DNA from: Trebouxia sp. TZW2008 | Lineage: Eukaryota > Chlorophyta > Trebouxiophyceae > Trebouxiales > Trebouxiaceae | Direction: 5' to 3' | DNA length: 64,000 bases | Assembly: GCA_002118135.1 (NCBI GenBank) | Contig: BDIU01000126.1 | Coordinates: 248,001-312,000 of the forward strand | Shown: piece after piece, positions 1-63,201 of the stretch | How the letters are laid out: each line of letters opens with the position of its first letter | Numbering within the stretch: the stretch's first letter is position 1 | Position numbers and translations under genes: made by a program | The notes under the pieces: generated by a model | What the model saw: the letters and a program-made list of their open reading frames with translations, nothing else | Told to the model about the DNA's origin: nothing | Databases searched by the model: none

Positions 1-672
1 GGACTGAAATTAGCAATGCTGCGATAGCTGTTTGGTGATGGTGAGCAGTGGCAATTGCTGCCATGCATTGGAAGCAAGAGACTGTCAGACTAGCAGAAGC
101 ATGCGCGGCATGGCGACTTCAGTGAATGTGTGCAGGCAAAATGATGATACAATAGGCAAGCTCAGATGAAGAAAAGCCCGTTTTGTTTGAATGCGGCATG
201 GCTGCTGAAGTACACAAGACTGTTGCACTTATGCCTATCAAGACAACAACCAAGTAACAACTTCAATTGACAACCTCTTGCTCTGATGTTAGCTACTCTG
301 CCCACAAGCAAAGTTGCAATTCAACAGCAGCACATGCTATCACTTAGTGATCAGCACAGCAAGAAGTCTGAATACTGAAGAGTGGCTGAACCATCGCTGA
401 ACAACTGTCAAAGCACTGCATGCTGGGCACTGGCTTAGCTACAAACAGTGTGCAGCACAAGGCAGGCTGCGTTGAAGCAGCACATGCCACTCACGTCAAG
501 AGCAATGTTGAATTAGCTGCACTAGGTTTGCGTACTCCAAAGATCGCTTGGTATGTTGAGCTGGCTCAACTCAGTGCTGAACATGTGCCACAGTGCTGCA
601 TGCCACATGGGCTTTCTGCTAGATGGCTTGCGCTGTAAGGCAGAATGTGGTACAGCAGCAGATGCAACTTAC
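1..672. other. Intron/continuation of the TMEM8-like gene; no further exon seen
   Basis: On the minus strand this stretch follows the donor of the last recognised exon of the EGF/TMEM8-like gene. I find no further convincing exon, so the rest of that gene probably lies left of the window. About 490-523 holds a decayed copy of the exon's last codons plus a GTGAG donor (see the repeat entry). About 390-420 resembles 555-600, which suggests a repeating unit of roughly 165 bp. Confidence 0.45.
490..523 (-). repeat. Donor-side partial copy of the exon ending at 673
   Basis: Read on the minus strand, this matches the end of the exon that stops at 673 (codons Phe-Asn-Ile-Ala-Leu-Asp) and again runs into a GTGAG donor. 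It lies downstream of the real donor inside the intron. It is one of many exon-edge copies in this window. Confidence 0.6.
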
Positions 673-1728
673 ATCAAGGGCAATGTTGAAGTAGCTCCAT
701 TGGCCTGGCTTTGTGATGTGCTGCTGCTCAGTGTCAAGAGGCAAATCTGCTACTGCCACATTACAACCAACATCACCCCACCCAGCCGCACACTCACAGA
801 AGGTGCACTCCCCCTGGGCAAAGGATGCATCTGTGCAGACGGAGTCAAAGACCTTGCACTGACCCTGATCTGAGCACTGACCCTTGGGGGGTTGGGTACC
901 CCCCTCCGCAAGGATGGGGCTTGGGCACCCCTGGGGGTCTGTAGCTGATTGGCAAGTAACCCTGAGCTGGTAGGTTAGGTTGTAGCCGCCATACGGCTGT
1001 GGGTTGACTACCTCAATGTACCAAGGGTCTGTGCACGCTGGGAATGTGCATGCTGGGTTACGCGTTTGCCGTGTTTGCTGATAGGGCCGTTTCAGCTGGT
1101 AGCCTATGTAATCATATGCCACAGCATTGTATGGGCTGAAAGTCCAGTCAGGATTGTTGTCAGGGTCTCTGGGCGGAGTGGCCTTGGGTATGGTCTTCTG
1201 AGCCATGAACAATATGGCATTGGCGCCAGTGTCTGCATTGTTTGCTGGCTGAGGGTTGGCGGCTCGGGATGTGTCCCACAGCTCCGCATTGAGAATACTG
1301 TGCATCATACACTGAGGTCAGAGGATGTGTAAGCTTGTGCAATGGGTTAATCTGGACAGCGTGGTGCTCTGCCAAAGAGAGTTGGGTGTGAGCGCACCTG
1401 CTGCCACTGCAGGCAATACTCTCAACCTGATAGGAAGCCTGACCCCCCGGCTGCAGAACGCCTGATTTCGTGTTTGGGCCTGGTGTGAGGGGCAGTGGAG
1501 GACTGATGCAGCTACACGTAGTTGCAAGCACTGCAGCAGGGTACACAGCTTGAATGCATCAGCAGCACACACAATCTGCAGGGTCATTCCTGTGGAACGA
1601 TAGGCACACAGCAGCAAGACATGTGCTCTTTGGCAATTGCACGAAACACGCTGTGCATTGCCAGTGCCGGTCTGATAGTGCTTCTCACCTGCAGCAAGTA
1701 TAAAGCCAACGGATGGCCGAAACCTCAT
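673..1728 (-). CDS. EGF-like domain protein, TMEM8/PGAP6-like, N-terminal part
   Basis: Three minus-strand exons chain with matching phases: 1689..1728, 1398..1530 and 673..1297 (40, 133 and 625 nt, ending in phase 0 at a GTAAGT donor). The start is an ATG followed by a hydrophobic stretch (VGFILAAVLATTCSCIS), a likely signal peptide of about 20 residues. Exon 3 ends with an EGF-like Cys pattern (CSDQGQC, then CTFCECAAGWGDVGC), followed by a GQWSYFNIAL motif. This order, a beta-rich ectodomain followed by one EGF module, is the one I associate with plant/animal TMEM8 (PGAP6, DUF3522) proteins, in which a seven-helix membrane part follows. That part is not in the window. The protein is probably secretory or at the cell surface. 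The family call is moderate; the signal peptide and EGF module are seen directly. It is divergent from the BRCT gene. Confidence 0.55.
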
Positions 1729-5000: not shown

Positions 5001-8000
5001 TTTTTTGGTTTCTTCGTGAATGCCCAGGCAATTTTTTGGGGCAATTTTTTTGGTTTCTCCGTTGTTGCCCAAGGGAAAGCCTGTTTTGAGTGGCGACCTT
5101 TGTCTTGCAACATATGCTAGTCTGTGTTGGTAAATCTGATTTCTGGTCACAAATGTTGCCAGTGATTGCTGGACATTTATGTGGTCCAGGGTTTTTTGGT
5201 TTCTTCGTTGTTGCCCAGGCATTTTTTTATTTCTCCGTTGTTGCCCAGGCATTTTTTTATTTCTCCGTTGCTGCCCAGGCATTTTTTTATTTCTCCGTTG
5301 TTGCCCAAGGGAAAGCCCGCTCTAAGTGGCGACCTTTGTCTTGCAACATATGCTAGTCGCTGTTGGGATGTCTGATTTCTGGTCACAAATGTTGCCAGTG
5401 ATTGCTGGACATTCATGTGGTTCAGGGTCTGAAGCCACCCCATTGGCACTCTGCGACAAATCCAAGAAAATTATGAAGGGCTTTGACCTTCTCACAAGCA
5501 GCATGACTGCACGTCATGCAAACGTTGTGCTGGGCTGCTGCCCTTTCTGTGTTGGAGCTGGGTCCTGCCGCTGTTCAATGGACACTAATACGTGCCATAC
5601 AATCATTGCCAAACTCTGACACATGCCATCGAGACTGGTGTCTGGCTGAGGCATGCACGTAATAGCTTGCATCTCAGCCAAGGCAGTGCCTCTCCAGCGC
5701 AACTTTGCAAGGTGTTGCAGCAGCATAATATGCCATGCCGCCGCTCTTTGCGGTTAATGACGTGACGCCCATAACAGCCGGCCTGGCGGCTTAGGGACTT
5801 GGGCCACACACACCTAGCACATGTGTTGGAATGCGTGACCAATGATTCTTATTATGATTATTATTACTGTTGTTATATTCATTAGATCATCACTGCTTCT
5901 GGCCTTTGCAGGCAGCCACAGAGCAGCAGCAGCCTGTATCCAGCACACCAGCAGGCCCAGAGGCAGGCTCAGCCGCTGCTGCCACAGTGCCTTGGTCTGC
6001 CTGTCGCCTATGGGACCCCAACCCTACCCCAGATGCTGTACCCACGTCCAATGCTGCAAATGCCAAACCACCCACAATCAGCAATGGCAAGCCCAAGCAG
6101 CAGCAGCAAGGGCAGCAGCAGCAGGTGAGAAGCAGTAGGTTCAAAGACAGCCAACAGCAGCAACAGCATGTGATTGATGGCAGTCAGGTTCCAGCAGCAG
6201 CAGCAGCAGCAGCAGCAGAGGAGAGCACAGCAACAGCTTCTGAGGACACTGACATGCAGGAAGCTGACGCTCATGGTGATGATGGTGATGGTGATGATGG
6301 TGTGCAAGCGCACGCAGGCAGCACGACTGGCTTTTTGGGACTGTCCTGTGGTGAGCAAGCATGCTTGGATCTGCTATGCTACGCTATGCTATGCTGTGCT
6401 ATGCTGCATTCTTGACAAGACCAAACAAGCATCAGACATGCATTGTGACTTCAACATCTGTAGTTCAAGGTAGCTGCCCAAATCATGTGCCAACCCAGCG
6501 CCAACAGTCACCTTGCTAGAGTTCAAGTCATCTGCCGCTACATGCATCTTCAGGGCAGCTGGCATCATGGACTGCTGACAGCTGGAGATGCGCAAAGCAA
6601 GCAACCAGCTTGCTTTACAAAATACATTTCACTTTGTGTGCAGTTGAGCCTGAAGTGCAGCAGTTGGCGCACAATGCAGTGCAGTTCCCGAGGGGCCTGA
6701 GGCTGAATGCAATGCAGGGAGCCTGCTTCAGTTGCTGCATTTCATTGTGTGCGCATGAGCCTAAATGCACATCATCGTCTGTGCAGCTGAGCCTAAACAC
6801 ATTCACCTTATGTGCAGTTGAGCCTGAGGTACAGCAGTTGGCGCGCAATGCAGTGCGATCGTTGAGGGGTCTGAGGCTGTGTGCAGAGGGGCATGAGGAG
6901 GGCCAAATCACCCACCTTGTCCTGGGCCAGCAGCGCCGCACACTCAAGGTGAATTTGCTCAAGCCTTCAAACCCAAGAAACAGAACCTGCAGGCTCACAT
7001 TGTCAAGACACAGTGTTTGGACACAGCTCAAGCCTTGCTATCATTGCTTGCATGGGTGCAAGGGCTCACCTTGTCTTGAACCAGCAGGGTCATACTCTCA
7101 GGTTCCTGAATGTTCAGCCAAGTACAACAAGCTGATAAAATGCTTGCATGCCTGCACATGATGTAATGATTGTATACTTCTTGTTCGTAATTGTGCATGG
7201 CTTCAAGGTGTGCATGTGTATACGCCTGCCTGAGCACTGAATATGTGCAGGTGCTGCTGGCCATTGCTGCTGGCGCCAAGCTGGTCACACCAGAGTGGCT
7301 GACAGCCTCCATGGAAGCTGGTGACTGGCTACCTGAGGAGCCCTACCTTGCCCAGGTCAGCCCTGCTGCCTCACTCATAAATCCATGTGTCGACAGCATT
7401 ACACAGCACAGGCGCCTGTGCATTGCTGGTCTCGTTGAGCCTGTGGTGTGATCTGGAGTAAATTTGTTATGCGTTCCTCAGCATCCGATGACCATCTAGC
7501 CCACATCATATGTGAACAGACAGACCTTGTGTAGCAGGATTCAGGACTTGACCTGCAACAAAGCCTTGAGTCAGCAACTAGAAATGCCTTGATACCTCAA
7601 GCTCAACACTGCCGATGGCATACCAACGCGGGATGTTGTGCAGGGGCGCTTTGCTGAAGCAGCGCTGTCAGCTCGTGCAGAGCTGCATGATCAGGAATTG
7701 CAGCGGAAAAGGTTTGCTGCAGGCATCCCCCCAGGCTTGCTTGAGGGCAGGTGGGTGCATGTTCACGTGGCAGAAGGTGCTAAGAAGGGTTCATGTTCTG
7801 GGAATGGAGGTCCCTTGAGGCGCCTGGTAGCAGCTCTTGGAGGCAAGGTGTGACTCAATCAGATAAATCAAGAATCAATCACTAAACCAGTCGATCGTTC
7901 AATCGACGAAAAAACAGAATCTACAGTCCTGATTGTATGTCCTGAGTGGCTGTTTGAGACTCAAAGGTCACTTGGGCATGAGCCTATCTGCGACACCATC

Positions 8001-10760: not shown

Positions 10761-13700
10761 ATGTATGGGGAGGTTGCTACACGAGAAGTCGCTGTAGCTC
10801 CGCTGCACGCCTCTGTTGCCGAACCGGTGAGCTTTTGACACACCACGTCTTTCGGCATGCCTTGCCTCCCATTGCTCTGCATCAAAGTAAGCACTGACTC
10901 TGCCCTACGGCATGCAGATCTCATGCTTGCAGTTCAGTGCGGGCCTGGAGGTCATTTGGGCAGGTACGAGCTCTTGAAGCAACATGAAGTGCAGCGCTGC
11001 GCAAATGCAACAGCGCCTTGTTTGTTATTTGCGCAGGCTCAGCCACAGGCGGGCTGTACACTTTGCAATGCCAGGCAGCTTTGCAGCGCTATGCATGTGT
11101 GCAAGCTCATGAAGGCAGAGTGCACGACATGTGTGCTGTTGGGGATGGTGTTTTGTCCTTGTCTAGTGATAGGTGGCGCCATCATGCTGCTGGTGGCATG
11201 TGCAAGCTCACATACATGGATCCCTCGGTACATTGTCAACCCATCGGTGTGACTGATGTATGTATGTATGTATGTATGTATGTATGTATGTATGTATGTA
11301 TGTATGTATGTATGTATTCATGCTGCCCCAGCATGACACATGTGTCTTTCACCATCTGCACGTGCCTTTGCGTGTCATGTGAGCATGATACCTAAGTAAC
11401 ATCACCCTTCCGACGCAAATGCATTCTCCTAAGGCATGCTGGCATGATGCCTTTGCAAGTCATCAGACATCTGGAAGCCAAGCAAGCACAGCCCTCTATG
11501 CACGCCTGCGAAAGTCAAGGCAAACTCGCTTGAGCACCAAGCCTGCTTTCAGGTGACAGACCTGGCAGCATGTGAGTTCGAACCAGGGAGCGCGTCACGT
11601 GTGATGCTCGGCAGGGAGGGTGGAGGCATGATTGTGTATGACCTGGATGCTCAGCAAGTCTCAGCCAAGGTACAGTGTGCATGCATGCCATCCTTGCCTC
11701 CAGTGAGCAGTTCCAAGCAAGCTACAGCTACGTTGCATGACATCTTCGTGTCAATGCATGGACTGCAAACACTTGACTTACTGAGCTTGCACCCTACATT
11801 CTGCAAAGCTGCTGGTGGAAAGCGTTGTTAGCTGACTGCCCCTTGCCCTTCAACAACAGGCTTTGTTGTCTGTACCCCACAGCCTGTGCACAAGTGTGCC
11901 TGAAGCATGTTCCTGCTGCCTCTGTATGCACTGCAGGCTTGACTGTTGCATGAGACCATTTGCCACGTGACAACCCAACGGCCAGCTTGCAAAGGCTCAG
12001 TAGTCGAGAAGCACTCTTGGCCATAGCTCGTGTGTGAAGGCAATGCCCTTGCACGATAAAGACTGAAAGCACAGTCCACAAAAGGGCAGCCAGCAGCACG
12101 CCAGAATCCAGTGGCAGGGCTAGTTAATAACATAGGCATTCAGAGCTACAGCACCTGCATTGAAGTTGCCATTAAGATTGTCAATTGCGCGTGTTGTATG
12201 CGGGCAGTGTGCATTGCAAGTGCGATCCAGGCTGAAAGCAGCTTTGTTGCATTCAGGCGGAGGTGGAGGGCGGGGTGCTAGTGATGAGGGCTCCTGCGGG
12301 ACGGGGTTTGGTGGCCATTGGCAATGCTGCTGGACAGCTGGTACTGGCAGACCCTAGAGCAGGTACTTTGCATACCGACTCAAGGCAAAAGCAACAATGA
12401 CAGTTCAAAGACTGACTCAGAAAGACTGAAAAAGTAGTCAAGTGAAGGAACAGGGGATCCACCCCTTGCATTGCCTGCATGGCGCTGTCTCAGACTCAGA
12501 GCTGATTGTCATTCTGCTCAGAGACCCCAATGCAAGGCTGATCATCACTTTGCTTTGAGACTGCAATGCAAGGCTGCTCAGTAGATTATTTTGACACTGC
12601 AATGTAAGGCTGCTCATCAGCCTGGTCACAGAGTGCATGGATCAGGGTACAAGGTGGAGCACACAGTGACATTTCACTCAGAAAGCCTGCAGGTTTTTCA
12701 TCATTTTCTTTGCAGCAGGAACACTCTCAGATTGTGTGAAAGCTTGAGTACAAAGCATTCAGAATCGTTATTGAAGTGTCAAAGACTGCTTATCGAGTGC
12801 CGGATGCAGGATACACGATGAATCACACGGTGAACGCTCACTTAGGAGGGCTGGAGCCTCTTTCCTTGCTTCAATTACAGCAGGAAAGACATCGAACCCT
12901 GTCAAAGCAGTAGCACAGAAGCTTTAAAGAAATGTGAAAGACTGCTTACAAATTGCATGGTTCAGGATACAAGGTGGAGCATACGGTGACAGCTCACTCT
13001 GGAGGGCTGGAAGCCTTAGACGCTCGAGGCAACTTCCTGGCCACCTGTGGGTACGGCATGCGTTTGGGCCAGGTGGCCCTGGACAACACGGTTAAGGTGA
13101 TCCCCACAACCTTACTGGAACAGCATCAAGTTGCTTTCTGATGACCCCCACGGCTTTCTGAAACAACACTACTGCCTTCTGGCAGAATCTTGCTGCCTCC
13201 TGAAACAGCATCATTGCAGTATACAGCTTGTAGTATCAGCTTGTATGATGAGTCTGTCAGCTGTTTGGGTGATCTCAGAGGGTTTGCATGCTGTACTGCT
13301 GGTCATGCTTGCACTGTCTCCTGGTCACTGTGGGCTCAATGACAAGTAAAGAGAATATCGAGGCAGGATGACCAAGGCAGTCTCTTTATCTGTCGTTCAG
13401 TCCAGAGTGAACGGGAGGCAGGTCAAGCAAGATCTGTAGTAGTCTGTGCAACCCCTCTGTGACCTTCCAAAAAGGCTGAAAATCATTCTTTGATTGATTG
13501 ACTTGAGCTGCAGCTGACTGCTGTCTCCATGTGTGCATGCTGGCTGCACAAACGAATCACAGTCAACAGGGCACATCAAATGAGTCACCAAAACCAAGTT
13601 ACGTTTCAAGCTACTGATTTATGTCCCTTCCAAGTGCCATGTCGTTTACAATGGCCATGCTCCAGCATCAAAAGGTGCAACGTTTTCTGAACTGCTGATA

Positions 13701-16700
13701 ATTCGAATCTGCCATGTACATCTCAAATGTTGTCTGCAGTTTGTTGACCTGAGCTTGACCATGTCAGCCACGACCTCGTAGACAAATTTTACCGACAGTG
13801 TAACCGGGCGGCAGTTGTGAGAAAACCTTTTGGCGGGTGTATGCAAGGCCTTTAGCCTGAAGGCTGATGAACACAGTGCCTCTCCAGTCTGGGCCTAGCC
13901 TGCTGCAGCCCCACATGCGGTTCACAGCGGTCATGATAAAGCCTAGAGCATTATCTTGAGCTATACACTTCGTAGATACAATGCTTGACATGTGTGGTTC
14001 AGGTGTCTGACCTGAATCTGTTCCAAGGCTGCTGAAAACAGTCCTCTTCCGCCCTGGGCCCAGGGCCCAGCCTGCTGCGCTTTTACATTGCAACTGGCTC
14101 GTCATTCACACAAAAATCATGAATTAATAAGTGATAATGAATGGTGATTAGTAATAAGGTGTTTGACCTCAGATCTGTCATGAGGCTGCTGAACACAGTG
14201 CCCTTCCGGCCTGGGCTCAGCCTGCTATGTTGCAAAAGGCTTGCCACTCATAATGGATATCATCAACCATCAAGTAATTTTTTTTGAGATCTGTCCTGAG
14301 GCTGCTGAACACAGTGCCCTTCCGGCATGGGCCCAGCCTGCAAAGGCTCCTCATCTCAAAGCCACCCTCAGTTGTAGTTCAGAAAGCCGCAAACAAGCTT
14401 TCGTTGGTGCCTTGCAGGATTTTGACCTGAGATCTGTCCCAGGCTGCTGAACACAGTGCCCTTCCGACCTGGGCCCAGCCTGCAAAGGCTCCTCATCTCA
14501 AAGCCACCCTCAGTTGTAGTTCAGGAAGCCGCAAACAAGCTTGCATTGATGCCTTGCAGGTGTCTGACCTCAGGTGTGCTCCAAGGCTGCTGGGCACTGA
14601 GCCCTTCCGGCTTGGGCCCAGCCTGCTGCGCTTCCACAGCAAACGTGCTTTGTCGTTCACAATGAATATCATCAATCAACAATCATCATCCACTATCATC
14701 AACCAACAGGTGATGCTTTGCAGGTGTTTGACCTCAGGTCTGCTCCAAGGCTGCTGAACACCGTGCCCTTCCGGCCTGGGCCCAGCCTGCTGCGCTTCCA
14801 CCCTAAATTCTCCAGCACCCTGCTCATTGGCAGCGAGGCCGGCATCTTCACCCTCTCTGACATCCAAGGCACTGCGCCTGGACCCACATACCAGGTGAAA
14901 CTACAGCATTTCACTGGTTTTGCACAAGCAACGGTGCTTTTACCTGCTTGCATGATACAATGAGGTGGTGATGGAGAACTCAGATTTTGAGTGTTGCGAT
15001 TATCAAGCTCAAGGCACGCTGTGCAAATTGCTTTGATTGATACCTCGGCAGGTGATCAGCATACACTTGAAGGACGCCTGTAGTCATCAAATCAGTTGAA
15101 ACAGCACATTGAGCCTGAGGTCATTTAGCCAAGCCGGATCACGCACAATCCTGGCCTCTCTCTGTCTGCAGATCAAGACAGAGGGTGATGCGGTGACAAG
15201 CTGTGCCTTTTCCAGCAGTGGGGAGATGATGGGCTCCGGGGGTAGTGGAGGGTACACCCAGCTGTGGGCCATCATTGCTACTCGTAGGGTCAACACAACC
15301 TCCCACACCCTGGAATTCCCTGACCCCTGTTGACAAGTCACATCACTTACAATCAACGGCTGATTCTTGACTGCAGATCGACACCGAAGGGGATGCAGTG
15401 ACAAGTTGTGCCTTTTCCAGCAGTGGGGAGATGATGGCTTTTGGGGGCAGTGGGGGGTTCACCCACCTGTGGGCCACCAGTGCTACTCCTAGGGTCAACA
15501 TGGCCTCCCACCCCCTGGAGTTCCCCAACCCCCCATCCAAGCCCCCCAGGCTCAATGAGCAGGACTCCTTCGCCTTACCCTTTCCCTATGGACTGACTCA
15601 GGCATGCACACGAACACCTCAAACGTAATGAAAATATATAACCATGTACAATGTATGAATTGGTATGAACACCTGTTGGCCACCAGTGCTACTGCTAAGG
15701 TCAACATGCCCTCCCACCCCCTGGAGTTTTGCCCCCCGCCCCAATACCAAAACCCGAGGCTCGACGAGCAGGACCCCTTTGCCTCACCCTTTCCCTATGG
15801 AGCAACTCAGGCATGCACCTCAGTGGATGGCGCATGATACTCACATGGGCAGTGCTGCACCTGGTGGTAATTATATGACAATTGCTACATGTGCTGGTGC
15901 AAGTGCGAATGCCACGCGTGGAATACATCCCGTCTTGACAGGCCAAGTCACCCTGCAGACCTTGTCGCATGCCTTCACGGCAAACACCCAAAGAGTTCTG
16001 GCTGTCGCAGGCTGGCTTACCTAGCTGTCTTGCACACTGCTGTCTGTGGCTTCTGTGAGCAAAACCTGCTGAAAGTCTCACTAGCTAGGCTCGCAAGGAG
16101 CTAATGCTGTGTCATCATTGCTCTGTAGTTTGTCCCACAGAAGCTTCCCAAAGCAAACCCCTGTGTACTGGCAAAATACCCTGACTTCAACAAAGCCAAG
16201 CATCCTTCACGCTGCACCAACACATCTCTGTACCTGTAAGAAAGGTAATTGCACTTGTGCTGAAGTTTTGGGCCACATTTGCCCATCAAGTTTTGTGACC
16301 CCTCCTTGTGCATCACTTTGTTCCTAATCCTGACAACTGTCAATCAAGTCAACAATTGGAATACGCTGCTGATGCAGTCCAAGCTGCTGTCAGGCTCCCC
16401 CTTCCCAGCACCCATGCAAATGCGGCAGCCTATGCATACGCGGGAGCTGTTACGGTATTCTAGGTCGTTTCATAGATGAATGCTGTTGATGCAGTCCAAG
16501 CTGCTGTCAGACTTCTCCTTCCCAGCACCCATGCACATGCGGCAGCCTCCGCGCATTGTGCCTGCGTCACTATTGAAGGAGGTGCGGCAGGTGGAGTTTG
16601 TGGGGTACGTGGCCAACCCAAAGTTCAGGAGGGGGGCGCCCCCAGGGGAAGCCACCAAGGCGGTGGCAGCCATGAGGAACATGCGGCAGCAGCCTAAACA

Positions 16701-19700
16701 GGCAACACCTAGCCCACTGACTCTCCGTGCCAGGTCAGCAACCTGGCTCAACAGCTGTGCCTGTACAGTGCTTCCTATTCATAATGACTGCTTTGCTTCC
16801 CTGTCCTCACATCCGATTGTCCTTATTCAGAGGTGCCACTGCAGCCAGACTCCAGTGATTGATTACCTGTTGCATTGTTCTTTCATCGAGAATGTCCTTA
16901 CATCAAGTAGCCTGACAAAGAGGAGTTACTGTACAGTATAGATCAGTGTTACCCCAAACATGAGCCCAAGAATCTATTTGCGGATGTAGTTGGGTGAGCA
17001 GGCACACAAGCGGCCTTCATGCTGATGTGTGGCTTAGCATGAATCAGCATACCAAGTGTGTACCCTGAGGAGGTGGTCAGTGATGCTGGGACTTCCCACA
17101 GTGCACAATCATTTGTCACAGTGCATTCAAAGGCGCTAAGCATGTTGTTCCTGCATTGAAGGCAAACTTACAGCTGCATCAGCGGATTTGGCTGAGTCAT
17201 GAGCTTGACATTGCAAAACACTCCCTGCTGAATACCAATGACACCTATGTGTCAGGCCAGATTCTGAGAGGAACCGTCCCGGCAGAAGGGCCCCAAGGGC
17301 TCCACATGGCTTCCCAGCCAATATTAGGTGCATGGTTATCTTGCACTGCCTAGAACAAGCCCCTGATCTTTGGCGATGAGTGATGTCTACGTAACATCAA
17401 AACCCATCCTGCCCAAGCCACAATCCCCTCGACCTGATACATGCTTAGCAGGACAGGGCCGGACTCTGAGAGGGGCAGTCCCCGACAGAAGGGCCCCAAC
17501 GTGGCTTCCCAGCAATTGCCTTTTGCAGAGAATGCATGTGCATCGACAGGCAAGCCTCAGACAGGCAGATGCAATTTGGCATGCAACCTGTCAACAAGCC
17601 CGAGCCCTAACATGATCTGTGTGTAGCCGGACAGGGCTGGACTTTGAGAGGGGCAGTCCCCACAAGAAGGGCCCAACATGGCTTCCCAGCAATTGTCTTT
17701 TGCAGAGAGTGCATGTGCATTGACAGGCGGGCCTCAGATAGGCAGATGCATTTTGACGTGTGACCTGTCAACAAGCCCGAGCCCTAACATGATCTGTGTG
17801 TGGCAGGACAGGGCCAGACTCTGAGAGGGGCAGTCCCAGGCAGAAGGGCCCCAAGGGCTCAACATGGCTCCCCAGCCGATACAGGCTGCAAAGGGTGCAT
17901 GTCCACCGCCAGGCAGGACTCAGATGGGCAGACGAATTTGACTTTAGCTTCTACAACCGGACACGCTTTGCTGGGCTGGAGAACGGCGTGGCCAACTGCT
18001 ATGTCAACTCCTTGGTGCAGGTCAGCCTCGATTCATAATCGTCGTGGTGGTGGGGTTGCGTGAGCTGCAATCTCCATGGCTGACATTCATTGTCTGACTT
18101 GAAAGCGCAAAAAGCTGTTACTCTGCGTTCAAGGAGCATAGCTTCTCTGCTTGTGCTGCTATAACACTGTAAGCAAATGATGTGCTCTGGGTGTCTGTGT
18201 CCTCTGTTCCTTTGAAGCAAATCTGAGTGGCCATGTCTTCTAGTGTCAATATGCAAAGCTTGCTATTTTGCAGCTTTGCGCCATCCTGACCGATCTGCAT
18301 GCAATCATCTTCATGGACATCACTTACATGCTTGCTGGTGATGCTCATTGACCCTGCTATGGCATGCAGGTGCTGTTTTTCATACCTGCTGTGAGGAGGG
18401 CAATGCTGTCCATCACGCCTGACCCCGACAAGGAATTCAGCCTGTCTTGCGAGATGTCTCTGCTGTTCCGCATGCTGTACACCGCACGGGGCAGCGTCTG
18501 CCAGGCCAGCAACCTCTTCAGGTGTGGCATTCTTGGCAGCAGTCTTATTCTGGCTGATGAGTACAAGTGACCCCACAGCCCGTTGCAGAATGACCACGCA
18601 AATATGTTGTGCGAGATGTCCCTGCTGTTCTGTATGCTGTACACTGCCTGGGGCAGCGTCTGCCAGGCCAGCAACCTTTTCAGGTGTGGCGCTCTAGGCA
18701 GTAGTCATATTGCCTGTGGCTGATGCATACAGCTGACCTTGCAGACATGCCTGTCCTTGGCAGAAAGATTATTGTACGATGTTGTGCAAGATGTCCCTGC
18801 TGTTCTGCATGCTGTACATTGCATGGGGTAACATCTGCCAGGCCAGCAACCTCTTCAGGTGTGGTATTCTTGGCGGAAGTCATATTGCCCGTGGTTGATG
18901 AGTGCAGGTGACCCCACAGCATGGGCGTTTGAAGTTGCCAAAGGATTGTAGAACTATGTCATGTGATATGTCGCTGCTGCTCTGCATGCTGTACTCTGCC
19001 CCGGGCAGCGTCTGCCAGGCAAGCAACCTCTTCAGATCGCCCAACACCCATGCTTGCTCTTTGCAACCCTATGCAGCTCTTCATCATTGCTGTCAGAGAA
19101 AGATGTACTGCAGGGCATTGAGGCAGAACAAAGAGGCAGCAGCACTGGGCTTGCTGGAGAGTCACGCTCAGCAAGGCCCAAGGGATAAAGATATTGAGGT
19201 ACAGCAGGATGCCCATGCTTCCTTCTTGTCTTGGGTGACAAAGCAGAATTTTCGTTACATTACAACAATTTTCAATATTGCTAGCTGCATCAAAGATGCT
19301 GCCAACGGTGATGTCTGCAAGTGAGTTTAAGAACAGCAACTTAGGCTTGGCAACAAGCGTACATAGCTCTCACGCACATCTGTCTGGTGTCAATGCATGC
19401 AGCAACTGCACAAAGCAACAAAGTATTCAGCTGCATGCCTTGCGCAGGCCGTTGCCTCTGTTCACACCTGTGACCACGCTATCGACCACATTAACACTGT
19501 CATCACAATCAATTGTTCACATACACCTTTCAACCATAAAACCAAACTTGTTGTGGCAAGCAGGTAGAAACACAGAAGGACCAATCTCTGCGGCGCCGCA
19601 TCCAGTCTCTGCAGTGCTTCCTGTTTGAGCAGCTGCATCGTGAGCTCACCCACACCCCACCACCTTCCCAAGACCCCCCTGGACCCCCAAAGGGCACTCT

Positions 19701-36482: not shown

Positions 36483-40515
<4,033 letters not shown>

Positions 40516-45786: not shown

Positions 45787-45810
45787 ACTCAGCTCACTTG
45801 ACAAACTCTC

Positions 45811-46035: not shown

Positions 46036-47321
46036 AATGCTGCACTTGTGATCTTCACAGTTACAGAGTGAAATGTCGTCGGTCTGGTTTTCCCTTATTA
46101 TGCACTGTGTTGTGTTCTGTACAGCGTGTTGTTCCAGCTATTGAGTGCTGTAGGGCACTGTATTGTGTTGAAATGCAGCATGGGTTGCAACTCAGAAAAA
46201 AGTCTCTGCGGGTGGCAGTTTTGTGAGTGTCCAGCAGGTTGTGTCCATGTTTTGCTTGCTCGCAGTCAGCATAAGGATTGGGCTGTTGTTGCAGTGCAGC
46301 AGAAGTATGCCTGAGTCACTGTAGTACTTTACTAATGTAACACAGTGTAGTGCTTCCTACAAGCTTTGATTTCTGCAAGCAGTATGATGCTTGTTTTCAG
46401 GCTTCTGAGCTGCGCTACTGATCTTGACGGCTTTTTGGGTATCTGCTGTATGTCGACATGTTGAGAGCCAACTGCATGTTGCTAATGAGAGTCTCTGGTC
46501 AATTCAGGCAAGTTGTTGGTGCTCTGGACACTTCATGATTGGTACTGCAATGGAAACAGCCCAGCTTTACAATCCTGTCCACTTAGTGGTTATGAGTGCT
46601 GTGCTGCACTCAGCTTATGCAAGACAGCTTTTGCACATGGCAATTGTATATGATTCATGATCAGGCAACACCGTCTGGCACACGTCCAAATGACTGAGCA
46701 GAGAACATTGAGTACAGATTTCATCCAGCTACTTGAAGCGTGTGCTGGCGTCTTTACTTGTGCATACTATGAAGTGAAAACGAGTCAGAGCTCAGTCATG
46801 CAGTTGCTGCTGCTAGAGACTAAAATTTGTATATTACACATGCCATGTGGCAAAGTTGCAACTGTGCCATAATCAAGTGTGATGTGCTGTTGCCACCAGA
46901 GCACGAGTTCATTGAACATAGCTTGTCGGAATCTGATCTGAGAATGACAACACCATACGAATACACTGCAGACACAGAGAGTCCAGAAGCAAAAATGAGG
47001 CTTTAAGCAGGATTCGTAACTGACAAGTGACCTAAGCAAGGGACTGTACTTCTATAGTCATCATCTTCAGCGCCTCAAGTGTTCAATACCTACAGTGTTG
47101 CAACAAACCAGCATAACAAGTAATAGATCTGCATTTATTACATACTACAATACCTCAGACCTTGATATTATCAGCAGACTGCTGAATACTGCTTACCATC
47201 AAGGCATACACAGGCTGAATACAATCCAAGTTTCTTGACATGAAACAAAGTGATTAGCTCCTGAACAGGATCCCCTCACTGTAAGCTCAAGGCCGCAGCC
47301 TGCTAACATACACAATCATGA
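46036..47321. other. Convergent intergenic region, no gene seen
   Basis: 1.3 kb between the broken RING copy and the methyltransferase stop on the other strand. Only short open frames without motifs are present. Confidence 0.55.
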
Positions 47322-53300: not shown

Positions 53301-55602
53301 CCGAGTGTGTGGAGGAGCTGCCAATGAGATCATGTGTGCCATTTTCAGGGTGCTCATGGAGGTGAGCCGCCTATTCAACCAGGCCAAGGACTTTTCGATC
53401 ATTTACATGCGTTTACATGCATGTTTGTCTACAGGCTGAAATGCAGCTGCCTTAAGACGCTTGCCCTGAAAGCTATAGGATTCCTGTGGTGTAGACTAGT
53501 TGCTATCAGGCTGGTTTGAGCGCACATGTTATTGTGATCTGTGCAGCCTGTCCTGACCAAGGAATCGTGCAGCTCCTCAGTTACACATCAGTTGCTACAG
53601 GCTGGAATGCATCTGCCTTGCTCGAGTGCTGAAGCCCTGAGGCCCCATCTGAATTGTACACCAATGCTAACAAGCTGCCTTGAGCGTACATCTTACTGTG
53701 ATCTGTGCAGCCTGTCCTGCATGTTCAAGGAGAAGCGCAGTGGTATCTTGATTGTCTCAAAGACAGAAGGAAAACCTGATCCATATGTTTTAGGCTGTGC
53801 TGCTGCTTTACCACAAGTGCTAATGTCAAATTGTATAACAGAACTAAATTTTCTTGATATGCCTTGAGCTTTGCATCAACTTTAAATGCATCACATGACA
53901 AGCTTATCACGAAATGCAGTTCACACGCACAGGTTCAGAGTTGCAGTTTCAGCTGATGCCTCCAACTCAGTCATGCTTAGATCCCGCTGCCACAAAATGG
54001 CACTATACTTGCTTGTATCTGTCTTACACAAATAATACCAACTTCAACAGGAAACAAAGTTCATCAATCTGCCTTCAGCTGAGACTTGCTTATTGGGATG
54101 ATGTAGGAGTATGGCACTGGCCGCTTCAACAAGAAGCATTCTACCTTCTTCGCCACAATGATGCGTGAGCTGGATCTCAATGAGGAGCCTGAGTTCTACT
54201 TTGACTTGGTACCCTGGCAGAGCCTCGCCAGCATCAACCACAACTTCCTGCTTACTGAGCGCAGGCGGCACTACTTGAGATATGCTGGAGGTCTCACCTT
54301 CTTCGAGGTACAAACCAAAGCTTCTGTACTGTGTTAGTGTTTGATTGGCATCGTTCAACATGTGTTGTAACACTTTCTGTCTTTTCATGAAGTGCTAGCC
54401 TGCTGTGCGTTTGATACAAGACAGGTTCAAGTGCGCAGCTGTTTGTCTTGCGCCTGATAGCATGCTGACTCGTGTGCTGAGCTACCTTGTAAGCACAAAG
54501 CATGACTTGCTAGTGCTCAACCTTTTCAACATGTTCACGCAGCTACCACACTGCTGTACCAGTTTGTGTAGAAGTTTACGCGGACCAAGGTTTTTGTTAT
54601 TGTGCACAGACTATTGCAAACAGCAGTGGTGACATGTTTGTCGCTAGCAGGGGCTAAGAGCTAACCCTGCCTGTGTCCACTCAGCCCAGCACATGCAACA
54701 AAAATGCCTGTGTTTGCTGAGGATTGCGATGTGGTGGCTGTGGTGCAGGTGATCGGCCACCAGTGTGTACAAATCATACTTGGCTGCTTTTGAATTGAAC
54801 ATGTATGCTGAGCAATGCTTCTTAATGGCTGTTGTGCAAATGCTTGGCCCAATGTGTGTACAGATCGTACTTGGCTGCAGCCCGCAGAGTGAGATGAAGT
54901 GAGGGGCACAAGTAGCGAACATGTATGCTGAGGGTTGCGTTGTTGTATGGTGCAGGTGAATGGCCCCAGTGTATACAGATCATACTTGGCTGCAGCACGC
55001 AGAGTAGGGCTGAGTGAGGGCGCTGCAGGCTACTGGGAGTTGCACATCAAGGAAGATGAGAGGCATGGGCGCCAGATGGTGGAAGATGTCGCTGTTCCCC
55101 TCATTGACCAGTGAGTCTCGATTTGCTCACAAGCTTGTGCAGCTGACTTCTAGACAGCAGTTGTTGCATGTTGACTTGTCATGGCCGACTTCAAGCATAA
55201 TTTGTCATGACTGTTGATGTTCACAGCAAATCTATGCCTTGCCTGCCAAGGGCCTTTTGTCTGAGCTCACTCCTGACCTTGACACTAGAACACAGAACTC
55301 TCTGCCATCAGGGGTCATGACAGGAGCCTCTGCTCATAGACACTATGTGTATGCCTTTGGGTTTGCATTGCCGAATTACACAATATGCATACGCATTGCC
55401 CATCAAGGCGCTCCCTATTGAGTGCATGGCTTTGCAGTAATGAATTCATGGCTTGCTGTGCAGCTATGGATCTGATGGCTGGGAGGTTGTGTTTGGGTAT
55501 GACCAGGAGAAGATGATGGGTGAGAGAGCTGGTGCTGCTCTAGTCACAGATCTGCAAGATGTTGACACAAAGCAGGCAACACCTGCCAGGTCCATGAAGT
55601 AG
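50387..55602 (+). CDS. Iron-containing redox enzyme, heme-oxygenase-like fold, plastid-type leader
   Basis: Eleven exons: 50387..50443, 50780..50993, 51110..51188, 51360..51445, 51859..51937, 52161..52300, 52755..52872, 53264..53361, 54107..54307, 54956..55110, 55464..55602. All phases fit except inside exon 6, where one extra T in a T run (52260-52264) shifts the frame. Allowing for it, the protein has about 454 residues. The first ~70 residues are basic and Ser/Ala-rich (transit-like). The rest is helical, with conserved signatures VDPPLGETASYI, GLVEASRQSR, EYGTGRFNKKHSTFF, FDLVPWQSLASINHNFLL, RRHYLRYAGG, GYWELHIKEDERHG and GSDGWEVVFGYDQEKM. The Glu/His-rich spacing fits the Haem_oxygenas_2 (iron-containing redox enzyme) family of non-heme di-iron oxidases. 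Substrate unknown. Intron 7 starts with a consensus GC donor (AG-GCAAGT). The first exon is inferred from phase. Confidence 0.75.
53430..53730 (+). repeat. Tandem duplication of 164 bp in intron 8 of the redox-enzyme gene
   Basis: GTGATCTGTGCAGCCTGTCC is at 53534 and again at 53698. Flanking matches (CAGGCTGAAATGCAGCTGCC against CAGGCTGGAATGCATCTGCC) extend the repeat. No exon is included, so intron-only duplications of the same size also occur. Confidence 0.8.
54725..54900 (+). repeat. Two acceptor-side copies of redox-enzyme exon 10
   Basis: About 54745-54790 (GTGCAGGTGATCGGCCACCA, then 25 nt) and about 54832-54895 (TGTACAGATCGTACTTGGCT, GCAGCCCGCAGAGT) repeat the start of the exon at 54956. 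The flanking intron motif AACATGTATGCTGAG is also repeated. Confidence 0.85.
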
Positions 55603-57445: not shown

Positions 57446-60400
57446 ATGGCCCTAATGCCCATGCTGAAGGGTTGCAAAGTCCCCAGCACCAGCGTGCAGC
57501 TTCCAGAATGTAAACAGCGAGTTGCTTGGAACTGCATTAGTGTTCGCCGGGCATGCGCACCGCCCACGCAAGCAGCCCACCTGCAGTATCAGCAAAAACT
57601 GCGTGTCAGATGTTCAAGATCGCAACTTGTCTGCCGAGCAGCTGAGACTGCCGAGGCCAGCAAGGCGGAAGAGTCTGAGGTTTTCAGCACAAATGATGGC
57701 GTGATAGACGAAGTGGACGAGGATGAGGCAGAGGTCAGCCTGCAGCTGAAGTGTGTCTGTACACTATGAGACCACCATGCATATGCCACACCAAAAATGC
57801 TGCACCGATTTGCAGGTGGACTTCCTTGGCGAAAGCACGTCTGGGAATCTGCGCTTCGTGCAAAGAGTCAAATCGGAAGGAATTGTAAACGTGCTTGGTC
57901 TCCAGCAGCTGGATGACATCATCACAATCCCGTACAAACACCTGAAGGAATCACAGCAGGTTCGCAGACGACTCTTCAAGCTTTGCCATCAACAAGCATA
58001 TTCCTGATTGTGTCGAAGCACACCTGTGACTGCAGGCTCTCATGAAGGGCCTGAAGGTCTCCCCTCAATATCCCAAAGGCATGGCTAACCGTGCCATCTT
58101 CTGCAGCCGCACTCTCAATCTGCGTTCCATTCAAGCTATAGGTCAGTCCTTGACAACTCAACACGTTTGGCAAGCAGCATGGACTCACATAGGCATTGAA
58201 AGCTGTTGCTTAAGGATAGTAGAGCTTACACTGCCGTTGTTGCTAACACAGACCCCTGTCACCATTCACGGCTTGTGCAGGCTATGACATGGACTATACC
58301 CTTGTACACTATGATGTGGACGCCTGGGAGGGCAAAGCTTTCCATTACATGCTGCAGAACCTGCAGAGCATGGGATGCCCAACCGAGGGTCTTCATTTTG
58401 ATCCTACACTGGTGACTCGTGGCTTGATTGTTGACATGGAGCTGGGCAATTTGGTGAAGGCTGACAGATTTGGGTAGGTCAGCTTTGTTGCTTCATAGCC
58501 CTGGCTATCAGCAATGCCTCAGAAGCATCTCCCAGCATCACGTTGTGCTTGGGCACTGATTTCAGCCAAGTCAGGTGTATTGTACAGCTGCCCATAGTAG
58601 GCAATTGTCACTTGCAGAGTTCTGCAGCAGCATGTTCTCTTGACTAAAATCTTGGCAGTTTTGCTTTTAAGCAATTTGAATGAATGCTTTTCATTTGGTT
58701 CATTCATTCATGTCTTTCACTCATTTCAAAGCAAGCTAGACAGGTTTAACAGGCCCAGCTAGGTACATTGTCACACTGGTCAGCTCCAAAGCAGTTCTGC
58801 ATTCTTGCAGGCATATCAAGCGCAGCATGCACGGGACGCATATGATGAGCACTGGTGAGATTAGGGAAGCTTATGGGCGTGATTTGGTCAATCTAAGGAA
58901 TGAGGGGAGATGGACATTTCTGAACACTCTGTTTTCTGTGTCTGAAGCAGTCATGTACATGCAGGCAAGTCTTTTACAGCTGTGACAAACATTGCCCATG
59001 CAGACTTCCTGCCTTAAGTTTTGCAAACTGATGCTGCACTGTTTGAGGCAGCTATGCTTGTGCCCCATGTTTTTAGCACAAGGAAATAGTCGGGTGGCCT
59101 CAGCTTCTGCACTGCAGCATGTGCAGCATCAAGGGCACCAGCCGTTGACAAGCATTGATTGCTGCACTCCACTGTGCAGTGCAGTCAGAAGCTCAACTGC
59201 TTTTACTGTTGCACTTGTGCTTCATAGCTGGCTGGAGCTTGCATGCGTCCTCATGTTTCTCCACTGCTCATTCTACAGCATTGTGGAGGCCAACGCTTTC
59301 CTTTGTTTGGCTCAACATTACATCAACAGAGTGTTTGTCTTTTCTTAGAGATTAGCACTGTCCAGCTGCCTTCAGCTGCTGGATGCATTCACCTGTGCTT
59401 TCAAGCCAGGCAGTCCATCAATTCGCATCTAGCTCAGACTGTAAGCTCTCTTTGTCAACCAAAGCAATTCATGGATCAATTAATTGACTGACTGATCCCA
59501 CAGATGGAACGTTGATTGACTCACTAAATGACTGATGGGTTGATTGAATGATGATTGATTGATTTGCTGATGTGTTGATGTCACAGATGGTAGATCGGTT
59601 GGATCAAGGTGCTCTCCCTCGCCAGGACTTCAGCAACAGCTACACCAGCCTGTACAAGCTGGTGCAGAAGGCACTGTACCGCACTCATGTGGAGGGGCAG
59701 TTGAAGGGTGACATCATACAGGACCCAGCCAGCTATGTAGAACTGGATCCTGACATGGCCAAGACCCTGCTGGACCAGCGGCAAGCAGTGCGCCCTAGCA
59801 CACTTTGTGCTCTGTTGCATACTCATTGCTGTGCTGTTGTGCTTTCATTAGCGCGTGCAGCAGCAGCGTGTGCTGTGTACCCTTTGTCGTGTTGGCAGTG
59901 CGCCCTGGCACGCTTTGTGCTCTTCTGCACGCTCATCACCTTGCCCTTGCAGCAGTCCTGGCAAGCAGTGCGCTCTGGCACACTTTGTGCTCAGTTGCAG
60001 CCTCATTGACTTGCCCTTGCATAACATTCTGGCAACAGCGTATACTGTGTGCCTTTGCTGTGTGGGCAAGTCAGCTTGTGCCCTGCTTGGATACCTTTGT
60101 CGGCTCGTGCCCTGGCATGCTTTGTGCTCTCTTGCGTTCTCATTGTTCTGCGGTCAACTGGCTTGATCTCACCGTGTGTGCTGTGTGCCTTGCACTACGC
60201 CGGTCAATCACAATGAGCACAGAAGATTCCATTGTGACACAGCCTCCCAGTGGCTGGCCTGCATTCTAATTTGAGCTATTTGAGTCTTTGTTCTTGGCAT
60301 TTACATTGCTGGTCTTTGGAGACTGCATCTCTGCACACTGGGTCACAAGCTGTGTTTTTCAGCGTATCCTTTGGTTTGCCATCAGTTCTGCCATCAAGTT

Positions 60401-63201
60401 TGCCCAAATAGTGTCTTGCAAGCGTGACATGCTGTTCTGCAGGGCAAGGTGCTGATGCTGATCACAAACTCTGACTATCTGTACACCAATAAGATGATGT
60501 CATTTGCCTACAATAGATTCATGCCACCTGGCAAGACCTGGCGCGACCTCTTCGACATGGTAAGTCTGCACTCAAAGGTTGATGTTGTGCGTATGCCTGG
60601 CTTCCTGCATACTGCAATGCAGTTTGATGCTCTACAGGATGACTTCATCACGCAATTTAATGCATCTCTTTCGACTTATTGGGCGGCCTCTTGCACACAG
60701 ATGGGTTGTACTTTGAGGCAGCCAATGATTGCTGCTCTCATGTGCTGTTTGGTTGATGCTTTAGGGTTGCCATTGCCCTCAGGCTGCTTCCATCATGCCT
60801 GCATCCGTGTCATGCAGGTGCAATGACTTATTGCTGTTCTGCAAGTTGACATGCATTGTGACAGACATCTGTTTTTGCTGTGATGAAACGCTCCATATTT
60901 ATGCTGTGAGGCTACAATGGCCCTTCAGGCTTCTTTCACTAAGTCTGAATACATGTGAGGCAAGTCTCATGACCTGTTGCTGTTCCATATGCTGGCATGT
61001 ACCAATCAGTTGTTGTTCTAGAAAAGTGAAATTGTATAGACAAGGTCGCTGCTGCTTTCAGGCTGCTCTACATCATGGTTCATTCAGTTCTGAAAGTCTA
61101 CAGACAAAATTGCTGCTGCTTTCAAGCTGCTTCACAGCATATCTCATTGCATCTGCGGGTCATTGTGCAAGCTCGACAGCCACACCCTGACATGCATCAT
61201 GACTAACAATCAAGTTTTTCATGTTTGCAAAGCTCCAAAAAAACGTGCTCTCAGGCTACTGTTGCGCTCTAGCTGCTTGACAGCCTGTTAATGTCTGCAC
61301 CTGCAGGTCATTGTGCAAGCTCGCAAGCCAGAGTTCTTCAACAGCAAGATGAGCTTATATGAAGTTGTGACAGATGATGGATTGATGCGTCCAGCCATGG
61401 ACGCAAGGAGAGATGGCAGCCTATACTGTGGAGGCGGGGCTGCCATGGTTGAGCGAGCGCTCTCGCTAGACGGAGACGAGATCTTGTACGTGGGCGACCA
61501 CATATACACAGATGCTGCTCTGGCCAAGCTTAACTTCAGGTCTTACACTGTCCAAACCCCTGTGAATGCTGTTCAGCTCTAACTCCTGGCTACTGCAGCC
61601 AGGACATCTACAGTGTTATTGTTGCTTTCAACATCTTGGGAACAGGACAGACTCTGTGCTTTGCAATTGTCAGTATTTGCAACTTACAGGAGGTCATCAA
61701 GTGCGCTACCACATCAGCATAGCTCAATGGCACATGACATGAGTTGATTGCACGGCATGTTTGTCTCTTGCTTTCATGAGAGCATGGTAGAGCAACAGCA
61801 AATAGAGTTCCACAGGCTGGGCTGAGTTGCTCTAGCTCCCTACATTCCTTTTTGACAGTTTTTATGAGGACGATTGCATTTGACAGGCTCAGCAGAACAT
61901 TGTGTTCTGAAGGTTCAATCTGGAGCAAATCTTCGATGCATTTGCAATGCTGCAGGTGGCGGACGTGTCTGATTGTGCGTGAGCTTGAGCTAGAAATAGA
62001 TGCGCTGGCTCAAGGCCAGCCTCACAGGAATAAGCTCAAGGTGCATACTGACCCAACATACTCTGGGTTCCTGTACTTGCAGCTCCAATTCAGTGCCTTG
62101 CTGCTGACTCAGTGTTGCTCGCATGGCTTGTTCATCTCTGCTGCCTGTCATTGGCGTCAAGGAGCAGGGTGTGAGGGGCGTGGTGCATCATGTGTTTGCA
62201 GCTGTGCTTGTGATGTCAGGTGCACATGTGCAGCTGCCTTTCAATCCTGAAGCACGTAGGTGCAGGTGGTGCAGCATGACACTCGTTGCACCAGTTGAGG
62301 AGGACTCTCAGCGACTTTGAGACTTTTGCTTCTGTATAGTCAGTTGCAGGGACAGTCAAAGTAATTGCGTGCAACATTGCCAAAAAACCTAAGTGTTGCT
62401 TGGCCTGTCTTGCCCTTTTCTGTCGCCTCTTTTGTGACATTTGGCCAAGTGCTCTTGCAAACATGCACTTGCCCTCTGTGCAGGAATTGATGAATAAGAA
62501 AGACCTCGTTGGTGATCTGTTCAATCAGCTACGTCTAAGACGGCAGCGTTGTCGGGAGGCACAACCTGACAGATTCAACAAGGAGGATGCTGAGCTGGAA
62601 GACACGTTGGGCCAAATGCTGATGGTATTGGATCAACTGGACAGCCTCATTGGTAAGGCTTGGTGCAATTCTTGCTACATGCATACTGTGCTTCTCACGC
62701 CCTCAGAAGCGTATTCCTGCTACATGCATCAGGGGCGAGTCAAAGGTTGCTGTCATGTGGGGCTCAGGTCAACTTTGCAATCACCTTGTGGCGGGATCAT
62801 TGCATGCTTGTTCAGCACCTGTTGCGGCCGATCTGTAAAAGCTGATGCAACTCAGCTTCAAAACAAGCCAATCAAGCATTGACAGCAAGTTGTGCAGATG
62901 CAAAGCTTACATTGGGTGTCGACATTTCCTTCAACCTGCAGGTCCCATGCTGGAGCAAGATGGACGGAATTTCAACAAGTACTGGGGCTACCTATCTCGT
63001 GCAGGACTCAATGACAAGTCACAGTTCACCCGTCAAATTGAGAAGTATGCTGACATCTACACATCTAGAGTGGCCAATTTCCTCCGATACACACCTTTCA
63101 TGTATTTCAGATCACCATCGCAGTCTCTTGCCCATGACCGACACTTCTACGGCTTGGCAGAAGACAAATCTGGTAGTACAGATGCTGATGCAATTGACTG
63201 A
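57446..63201 (+). CDS. HAD-superfamily IG 5'-nucleotidase (NT5C2/NT5DC-like)
   Basis: Eleven exons chain in phase to 649 residues: 57446..57733, 57816..57959, 58036..58141, 58281..58473, 58811..58964, 59587..59787, 60443..60559, 61307..61539, 61956..62040, 62484..62652, 62942..63201. The first ~65 residues look like a plastid transit peptide. HAD motif I is GYDMDYTL (nucleophile Asp182, acid/base Asp184), motif II is LITNSDY, motif III Lys is in ARKPEFF, and motif IV is YVGDHIYTD. A helical C-terminus follows. This is the purine/IMP-GMP 5'-nucleotidase branch, which dephosphorylates nucleoside monophosphates. The exact substrate is not readable from sequence, and plastid location is inferred. 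Intron 5 has a GC donor (CAG-GCAAGT). Intron 6 carries donor-side exon copies. Confidence 0.92.
58685..58800 (-). repeat. Interspersed repeat family B, copy 3 (inverted)
   Basis: On the plus strand it reads TTCATTCATTCATG, then AACAGGCCCAGCTAGGTAC, the reverse complement of the family B core at 3508 and 28310. It lies in intron 4 of the nucleotidase gene. Confidence 0.55.
59440..59586 (+). repeat. Degenerate TGAT/TTGA repeat before exon 6
   Basis: Imperfect units of GATTGATTGA and ACTGACTGAT fill the 3' end of nucleotidase intron 5 up to the acceptor at 59586. Confidence 0.75.
59790..60170 (+). repeat. Donor-side copies of nucleotidase exon 6 (three)
   Basis: GGCAAGCAGTGCGCCCTAGCACACTTTGTGCTC after the real donor (GT at 59788) recurs at about 59894-59935, 59965-60005 and 60095-60135 (GCAGTGCGCTCTGGCACACTTTGTGCTC and variants). 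The copies carry only about 10 nt of exon and mostly the start of the intron, with irregular spacing of about 70-130 bp. Confidence 0.82.
61030..61190 (+). repeat. Tandem repeats and an acceptor-side copy of nucleotidase exon 8
   Basis: TCTGCGGGTCATTGTGCAAGCTCG at about 61150 copies the acceptor and start of the exon at 61307 (CCTGCAGGTCATTGTGCAAG). Before it, GCTGCTGCTTTCAGGCTGCT and its near copy repeat with a period of about 65 bp. Confidence 0.75.

Follow-up and report, generated by a model that had tools for sequence, protein, structure and literature searches.

Introns in a stretch of the genome of Trebouxia sp. TZW2008 contain ladders, that is, series of partial copies of the edges of their neighbouring exons. 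Trebouxia is a lichen alga. The window is the whole stretch of 64,000 nucleotides that was analysed (contig BDIU01000126.1 of assembly GCA_002118135.1, positions 248,001 to 312,000 of the forward strand). The copies involve 18 exons of six genes, at 20 splice junctions in total, slightly fewer than the at least 20 exons in at least seven genes counted in the initial annotation. Thirteen of these junctions belong to the PAN2 deadenylase gene, two each to a MYND/RING and a 5'-nucleotidase gene, and one each to a BRCT, a haem-oxygenase-like and an EGF-like gene. Frequent short-range duplication, filtered by splicing and by reading frame, is well supported, and it is likely that this process explains the junction ladders.

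Near repeats in this genome are almost always direct. All 65 pairs found by comparing the window with itself (expectation value E<=1e-3) are direct. In 246 kb, consisting of the window and 20 further loci (21 sequences), repeat pairs within 1500 bp of each other (E<=1e-6) comprise 174 direct and two inverted ones. The high rate of 80-200 bp tandem duplication proposed initially thus holds as far as frequent short-range direct duplication is concerned. The median distance to the nearest copy is 163.5 bp (interquartile range 140-212; 38 junctions).

The copies are also ordered with respect to splicing. Copies are present on the intron side of 13 of 44 PAN2 junctions and on the other side of none of 44 (Fisher p 4e-5; exons shorter than 45 bp were excluded from the junction tests). 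They therefore lie upstream of acceptors and downstream of donors, as had been claimed, and are intron-side copies of junction-crossing exon pieces, as in the junction-crossing duplication of the potato RdRp type. According to the orthologs, the protein continues from the first donor or the last acceptor of a ladder, and the proteins of relatives pass over the copies. For gene-finder genes in the 21 sequences, the intron side carries copies at 50 of 678 junctions and the other side at 17 of 663, counts in which some exons of the PAN2 region seem to be included again. Same-side junction copies are present in 12 of the 21 sequences, the window counted, and the phenomenon is therefore widespread in the sampled genome.

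There are 37 repeat pairs in PAN2. In 21 of them a junction-crossing piece is paired with an intronic copy on the expected side, and in five the exonic piece starts or ends at most about 12 bp from a laddered junction. The other 11 are intron-intron pairs, nine within two ladders and two independent. No pair has the wrong polarity, joins two exons or encloses a whole exon, which agrees with the earlier impression that whole-exon copies are nearly absent. Across all 21 sequences, nine of the 174 pairs enclose a gene-finder exon, and no ortholog-supported exon is among these. Shifting the repeat set along PAN2 gave 21 polarity-correct pairs in one of 4000 shifts, and moving the pairs independently reached that number in none of 2000 trials (mean 5.8, maximum 15). 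The 37 pairs were grouped by the author into 15 families, with the nine intron-intron pairs assigned to their two ladders. Classing these repeats by junction, which had been suggested at the outset, gives 13 junction families and two intron-only families.

Genes were predicted with a self-made, self-trained gene finder, which gives 402 introns in 204 kb and 483 in the 246 kb. Its acceptors have the consensus TGCAG/G and its donors are MAG/GTRAGY-like. PAN2 exons were identified with the orthologs of Trebouxia sp. C0006 and C0005, the closest PAN2 relatives, and their exact ends come from the splice consensus or the gene finder, the latter being the sole support for 19651-20181 within one exon. 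For the 5'-nucleotidase and MYND/RING genes, proteins of relatives served to check the exons; among these, Trebouxia sp. C0009 is third-best for the former and C0004 second-best for the latter. Because the gene finder calls some decoys (the copied splice sites) exons, the main statistics rest on PAN2, a single gene.

The best support for selection against frame-breaking exonic duplications is a frame filter. Of 22 repeat pairs wholly inside one predicted exon, 20 have an offset divisible by three (p 3e-8), which upholds the idea that duplications breaking the frame within exons are removed. When one copy is intronic, the offsets are spread over the three frame classes as 42, 51 and 45. In the MYND/RING gene, the 3' end of the terminal exon has a copy just after the stop codon, which is presumably tolerated for the same reason as intronic copies.

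Once intronic, the copies decay much as neutral sequence would. Decay and the intron halves of copies were studied in the window and 15 loci, with a PAN2 model of 25 exons in which two acceptors and one donor were off by a few bases. The exon parts of 60 copies are 73-100% identical to their exons; copies stopping short of the junction were excluded from this list and from a 37-entry list. In 25 PAN2 copies (about 660 sites per codon position, copies within one ladder not being independent), mismatches with the exon amount to 8.1, 9.7 and 19.5% at codon positions 1, 2 and 3. This pattern is expected because the copy changes freely and the exon mainly at third positions. At sites with different amino acids in exon and copy, the C0006 ortholog agrees with the exon in 80 cases, with the copy in eight and with neither in 18. 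Indels in copies are not multiples of three in 17 of 22 cases, and two of 641 codons are stops. The exon differs from C0006 at 120 sites, and at 94 of these the copy has the exon's residue; most copies therefore look younger than the split from C0006.

The decoy splice sites were expected to form arrays beside the real ones, and this is what is seen. Acceptor copies have an intact AG in 24 of 31 cases, not different from the neutral rate of 0.84 (p 0.32). Donor copies keep GT in 20 of 29 (p 0.04 against the same rate), or in 18 of 29 by strict aligned position (p 0.004), the other two being cases where the anchor is one base off. The neutral rate is that of PAN2, and many donor copies sit in other, perhaps older, ladders. 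Functional decoys were considered and rejected, since the codon-position and indel patterns look neutral. Two decoy acceptors before the exon at 23267 have higher position weight matrix scores than the real acceptor (9.1-9.8 versus 5.4).

The positions of the ladders are collected in Table 1. In the ladder of exon 14724-14894, the last three of five copies overlap a 142 bp tandem array at 14285-14626. The copy before 16495 shares 13 bp of intron with the exon edge, and its 50 bp spacer matches neither flank. The ladder of exon 17807-18020 includes a distant partial copy at 17255-17323. An example on the donor side is exon 18370-18522 (...GSVCQASNLFR), whose last 75-79 bp recur three times downstream together with the donor and the intron start; the last of these copies has lost its GT. 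A single PAN2 intron hosts both the donor ladder of the exon ending at 20292 and the acceptor ladder of the next exon (21519, VELHYPPAKDRPP...). The donor-side copy of exon 26873-27098 consists of 100 bp of exon and 12 bp of intron, and its 83 bp spacer has no other match in a genome search. In the 5'-nucleotidase gene, the copied piece is mainly intron.

Table 1. Location in the window of the PAN2 gene and of the copies of exon edges in PAN2 and the other genes
Gene	Feature	Positions	Strand	Remarks
PAN2 deadenylase	gene, 24 exons used, 13 ladders	10761..30667	+	Pfam PAN2_N, UCH_1, RNase_T on gene-finder pieces; tblastn of Trebouxia orthologs
PAN2	2 acceptor-side copies of exon 12966-13096	12619..12859	+	12619-12679, 12760-12859
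PAN2	5 acceptor-side copies of exon 14724-14894	14000..14637	+	
PAN2	acceptor-side copy of exon 15377-15592	15159..15327	+	
PAN2	donor-side copy of exon 15377-15592	15670..15818	+	
PAN2	acceptor-side copy of exon starting 16495	16365..16431	+	93%
PAN2	acceptor-side copies of exon 17807-18020	17255..17757	+	unit 178 bp
PAN2	3 donor-side copies of exon 18370-18522	18610..19035	+	units ~162-175 bp
PAN2	2 donor-side copies of exon ending 20292	20331..20571	+	unit ~140 bp
PAN2	4 acceptor-side copies of exon 21519-21746	21049..21480	+	units ~124-126 bp
PAN2	2 acceptor-side copies of exon 23267-23377	23022..23211	+	clearer one 23121-23211
PAN2	acceptor-side copy of exon 26873-27098	26700..26822	+	
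PAN2	donor-side copy of exon 26873-27098	27194..27304	+	92%
PAN2	donor-side copy of exon 29117-29278	29472..29511	+	
BRCT	acceptor-side copy of exon 6818-6948	6620..6705	+	exon from gene finder
MYND/RING	acceptor-side copy of exon 44525-44729	44302..44395	+	
MYND/RING	2 acceptor-side copies of terminal exon starting 45418	45134..45361	+	
MYND/RING	copy of 3' end of terminal exon starting 45418	45823..46048	+	just after stop codon
Haem-oxygenase-like	2 acceptor-side copies of exon 54956-55110	54711..54905	+	54711-54787, 54845-54905; exon from gene finder
5'-nucleotidase	2 donor-side copies of donor 59787	59895..60008	+	mainly intron sequence
5'-nucleotidase	acceptor-side copy of exon 61307-61549	61113..61182	+	weak, E=3e-4
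EGF-like	donor-side copy of donor 673	476..518	-	E=2e-5; donor from gene finder

The model proposed for the ladders starts with short-range direct duplications, which would arise often and place the nearest copy typically 140-212 bp away. Duplications that break the coding sequence would be lost, as the frame filter indicates. When an event straddles an exon edge, splicing would keep the site that preserves the protein, which, judging from the orthologs, is the last acceptor or the first donor. The spare copy, splice site included, would then turn into neutral intron and decay, and repeated events would stack copies into ladders. The direct orientation of the copies, their polarity, the frame filter, the neutral-like decay and the ortholog identity of the used copy are shown by the data. 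Splicing presumably skips the decoys in this species, and the way in which the duplications arise at the DNA level is inferred. Among noncoding 5-mers, the acceptor core TGCAG is the most frequent (5.3 per kb; 0.93 expected), and it is a speculation that it could act as microhomology.

The plainest form of this model is head-to-tail tandem duplication of 80-200 bp units that span a junction, uniform along genes and with purifying selection as the sole filter. It is a possible but rather unlikely account of all the copies. Contiguous head-to-tail arrays including the intron halves are seen at exons 17807, 18370, 19564 and 21519. Homology in the intron half (rank p<=0.05 against 30 controls) is found in 38 of 60 copies, and seven of the 13 PAN2 families have one or more such copies, as expected from a duplicated unit spanning the junction. 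Acceptor copies with intron homology also retain a pyrimidine tract like that of functional sites (0.57, n=19; random TGCAG -0.50; p 0.0004). Yet 22 of the 60 copies are without intron-half homology, among them 13 of 25 in PAN2 and all copies of six of the 13 PAN2 families. Decay was rejected as the cause, since tandem copies simulated with random sequence and a simple indel model showed the homology in 100 of 100 cases at each of four ages (t = 0.085, 0.12, 0.16 and 0.2). Among 37 pairs with at least 86% identity over at least 45 bp, 29 have a spacer of at least 25 bp, and in 13 of these 29 the match of the spacer to either flank stays within the 95% control. The strict tandem structure of the initial annotation is weakened accordingly. 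Several further observations count against the proposed model of filtered duplication as well. Under uniform duplication with survival, the share of junction families should be 0.27, or 0.34 once simulated detection bias is allowed for; 13 of the 15 PAN2 families are junction families (P 4e-5). Detection bias was rejected as the sole cause of this excess, the simulated detection window being 1.4 times longer for junction pairs; with assumed factors of 3 and 4, P is 0.006 and 0.02. Survival as the sole filter predicts more intron-interior repeats than are seen, and this part of the initial annotation is not supported in the form given. The identity of the exon half and the similarity of the intron half are uncorrelated (rho -0.04, n=60), whereas clock simulations give a mean of 0.68 and a minimum of 0.54; one tandem event of one age therefore cannot explain all copies. 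The 17 other-side copies in gene-finder genes also run counter to the polarity, and they are probably for the most part decoys miscalled as exons. Finally, GT is lost somewhat above the neutral rate, so that decoy donors may not be wholly neutral and some purging of them is possible.

Another model is local copy-and-insert, in which a break in an intron is repaired by copying 50-150 bp from a nearby exon edge in direct orientation, the spacer being native intron. It is a tentative explanation, less likely than not. The alignment ends at most 17 bp into the intron in eight of the 13 PAN2 families (acceptors 13, 12, 13, 4 and 4 bp; donors 17, 12 and 11 bp), with exon parts of 29-156 bp (binomial p 2e-5, assuming a uniform end over 150 bp). 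Two of the eight, the 15377 acceptor and the 15592 donor, have weak further intron homology in an anchored test, and without them p is 0.002. The other six have none. Their visible copy is the exon edge with 4-13 bp of intron, and this suggests either local copy-and-insert or a duplication that later lost its intron half. Three spacers searched in the genome, with very common words skipped, match themselves only, and the tracts of acceptor copies without intron homology resemble random TGCAG (-0.10, n=12, p 0.28), but n is small and some such copies have strong tracts (23124, 23022). The model gives no reason why exon edges should be copied over intron interiors, and inverted copies, which several break-repair routes would produce, are nearly absent. 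With contiguous arrays and intron-half copies on one hand and edge-only copies on the other, the ladders are therefore a mixture, produced either by two kinds of event or by a single kind that was later followed by loss. Uncorrelated halves and the junction-pair excess would also follow if the duplications were old and gene conversion from the functional exon kept the exon halves alike while the intron halves saturated. This is doubtful. Matches are not clustered within exon halves (run test; 2 of 49 copies below 0.05, combined p 0.28), and the sharing of the exon's residue at 94 of 120 sites fits simple youth too. Alternative or mutually exclusive exons under selection are very improbable. 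Decoys often keep AG or GT and score like real sites, but none of the 37 PAN2 pairs is a whole-exon copy, as mutually exclusive exons would be; indels mostly break the frame, changed residues sit in the copies, AG is kept at a rate not different from neutral and GT less often. The least credible origin is an assembly artefact or an introner-type mobile element family, in favour of which nothing was found. The copies are diverged, unlike an assembly duplicate, and an introner or transposon origin was rejected, since the three spacers and one array match themselves only in the genome under the same word filter.

In a further reading, copying itself would be aimed at splice junctions by a transcription- or splicing-coupled process. 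Breaks might, for example, occur at paused or looped transcripts near splice sites, and exon edges ending in the consensus would be copied into the adjacent intron. This reading is quite unlikely. If it were true, introns of the lineage would grow by a targeted route and not by random duplication.

Repeat content and intron length fit introns that have grown by duplication, although older copies are not visible. All near repeats together account for 23.7% of the intron bases of PAN2 and for 9.1% of those predicted overall, and the initial view of tandem duplication as the main engine of intron growth is not supported as it stands. The median length is 725 bp for PAN2 introns holding 60 or more repeat bases (n=11) and 377 bp for the others (n=12; p 0.0005), a difference to be read with the caveat that longer introns offer more room for repeats. 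One of the 11 repeat-bearing introns holds an intron-interior repeat alone.

Gene-internal duplications that take in exon as well as intron sequence are reportedly common (Gao and Lynch 2009). One recognised way for genes to gain introns is tandem duplication (PMC3443670, PMC2891723; these and the papers compared below are represented by excerpts). The closest precedent is intron gain in potato RdRp (PMC4974935), where an acceptor-crossing tandem duplication spans an intron-exon boundary, the exon piece lying upstream turns into intron and the splicing signals are inherited. That case concerns a single locus and is counted as a new intron, whereas Trebouxia has many loci with multi-copy ladders on acceptor and donor sides, and existing introns are lengthened. 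In the AGGT exon-segment tandem duplication of Rogers and Hellsten (PMC3443670), a duplication is likewise made intron by splice-site choice, but a new intron of one unit's length arises. Intron creation of this type was rejected by a register test for homology between donor and acceptor flanks, in which one of 370 introns, a marginal case, lay above the maximum of about 4000 control pairs. Novel intron positions in Drosophila, attributed to tandem duplication or intron sliding (PMC2891723), are similar in that intron arises from duplicated exon sequence carrying a proto-splice site; they differ in being five inferred cases that remaining sequence similarity does not support. Fill-in by Pol alpha-primase at breaks with 3' overhangs (PMC8355091) has been documented to produce small direct tandem duplications, some of them carrying further mutations, although in mouse and human cells and with no link to splice junctions in the excerpt. 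The literature searched yielded no account of exon-edge ladders that are widespread and ordered in polarity. The words intron, exon and tandem do not occur in the main text of one Trebouxia genome paper (PMC11523091), and in that of another (PMC12712428) intron occurs once, in a reference title, and exon and tandem not at all. Single-locus precedents are known, and the apparently new aspect, of which no account was found, is the widespread occurrence of ladders on both sides of junctions.

The assembly comprises 68.5 Mb in 527 contigs, with a GC content of about 50%, and the DNA of the window is taken as Trebouxia nuclear genome. A Pfam search of ten of the 17 predicted window genes named BRCT, PAN2_N, UCH_1, RNase_T, MYND, haem-oxygenase-like, ORMDL and 5'-nucleotidase. 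The names geranylgeranyl reductase, GAPDH, methyltransferase and EGF-like are presumed identities, read off the predicted proteins without a search. No repeat pair at E<=1e-6 is present in the predicted geranylgeranyl reductase, GAPDH, methyltransferase and ORMDL genes. The size and GC content of the assembly lie inside the range given for the genus in the excerpt of PMC11523091.

Repeats of other kinds also occur. A predicted PAN2 exon contains an in-frame 30 bp minisatellite (19964-20112, about 4.9 units, rich in Q, A, E and G), which falls in a stretch where the C0006 ortholog does not align. A 30 bp tandem repeat with poly-T (5192-5307) is found near the tRNA-Ala(AGC) gene at 4896-4968, and microsatellites of ATGT (11256-11317, 15.5 units) and TGAG (37493-37582, 22.5 units) are present. 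Four short dispersed repeats with 79-95% identity (5795-5833 and 22321-22359; 22263-22384 and 47884-48002; 3501-3579 and 28309-28391; 16802-16908 and 30114-30216) are perhaps transposon fragments. Outside the window, locus L004:5555-8289 holds a long array of about 266 bp units with 72-75% identity, unlike the junction ladders.

This one genome shows frequent local duplication filtered by the need for an intact protein. It offers a dense record of duplicated splice junctions, of which ones are tolerated and of how decoy sites decay. The spliceosome has to distinguish a real site from near copies at distances of roughly 60-220 bp. Each ladder amounts to a natural experiment on how splice sites are chosen. 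Since the copies depart from what simple tandem duplication predicts, the mechanism of duplication becomes open to test in an algal genus that is small and sequenced. The ladders also show how introns can lengthen without transposons.

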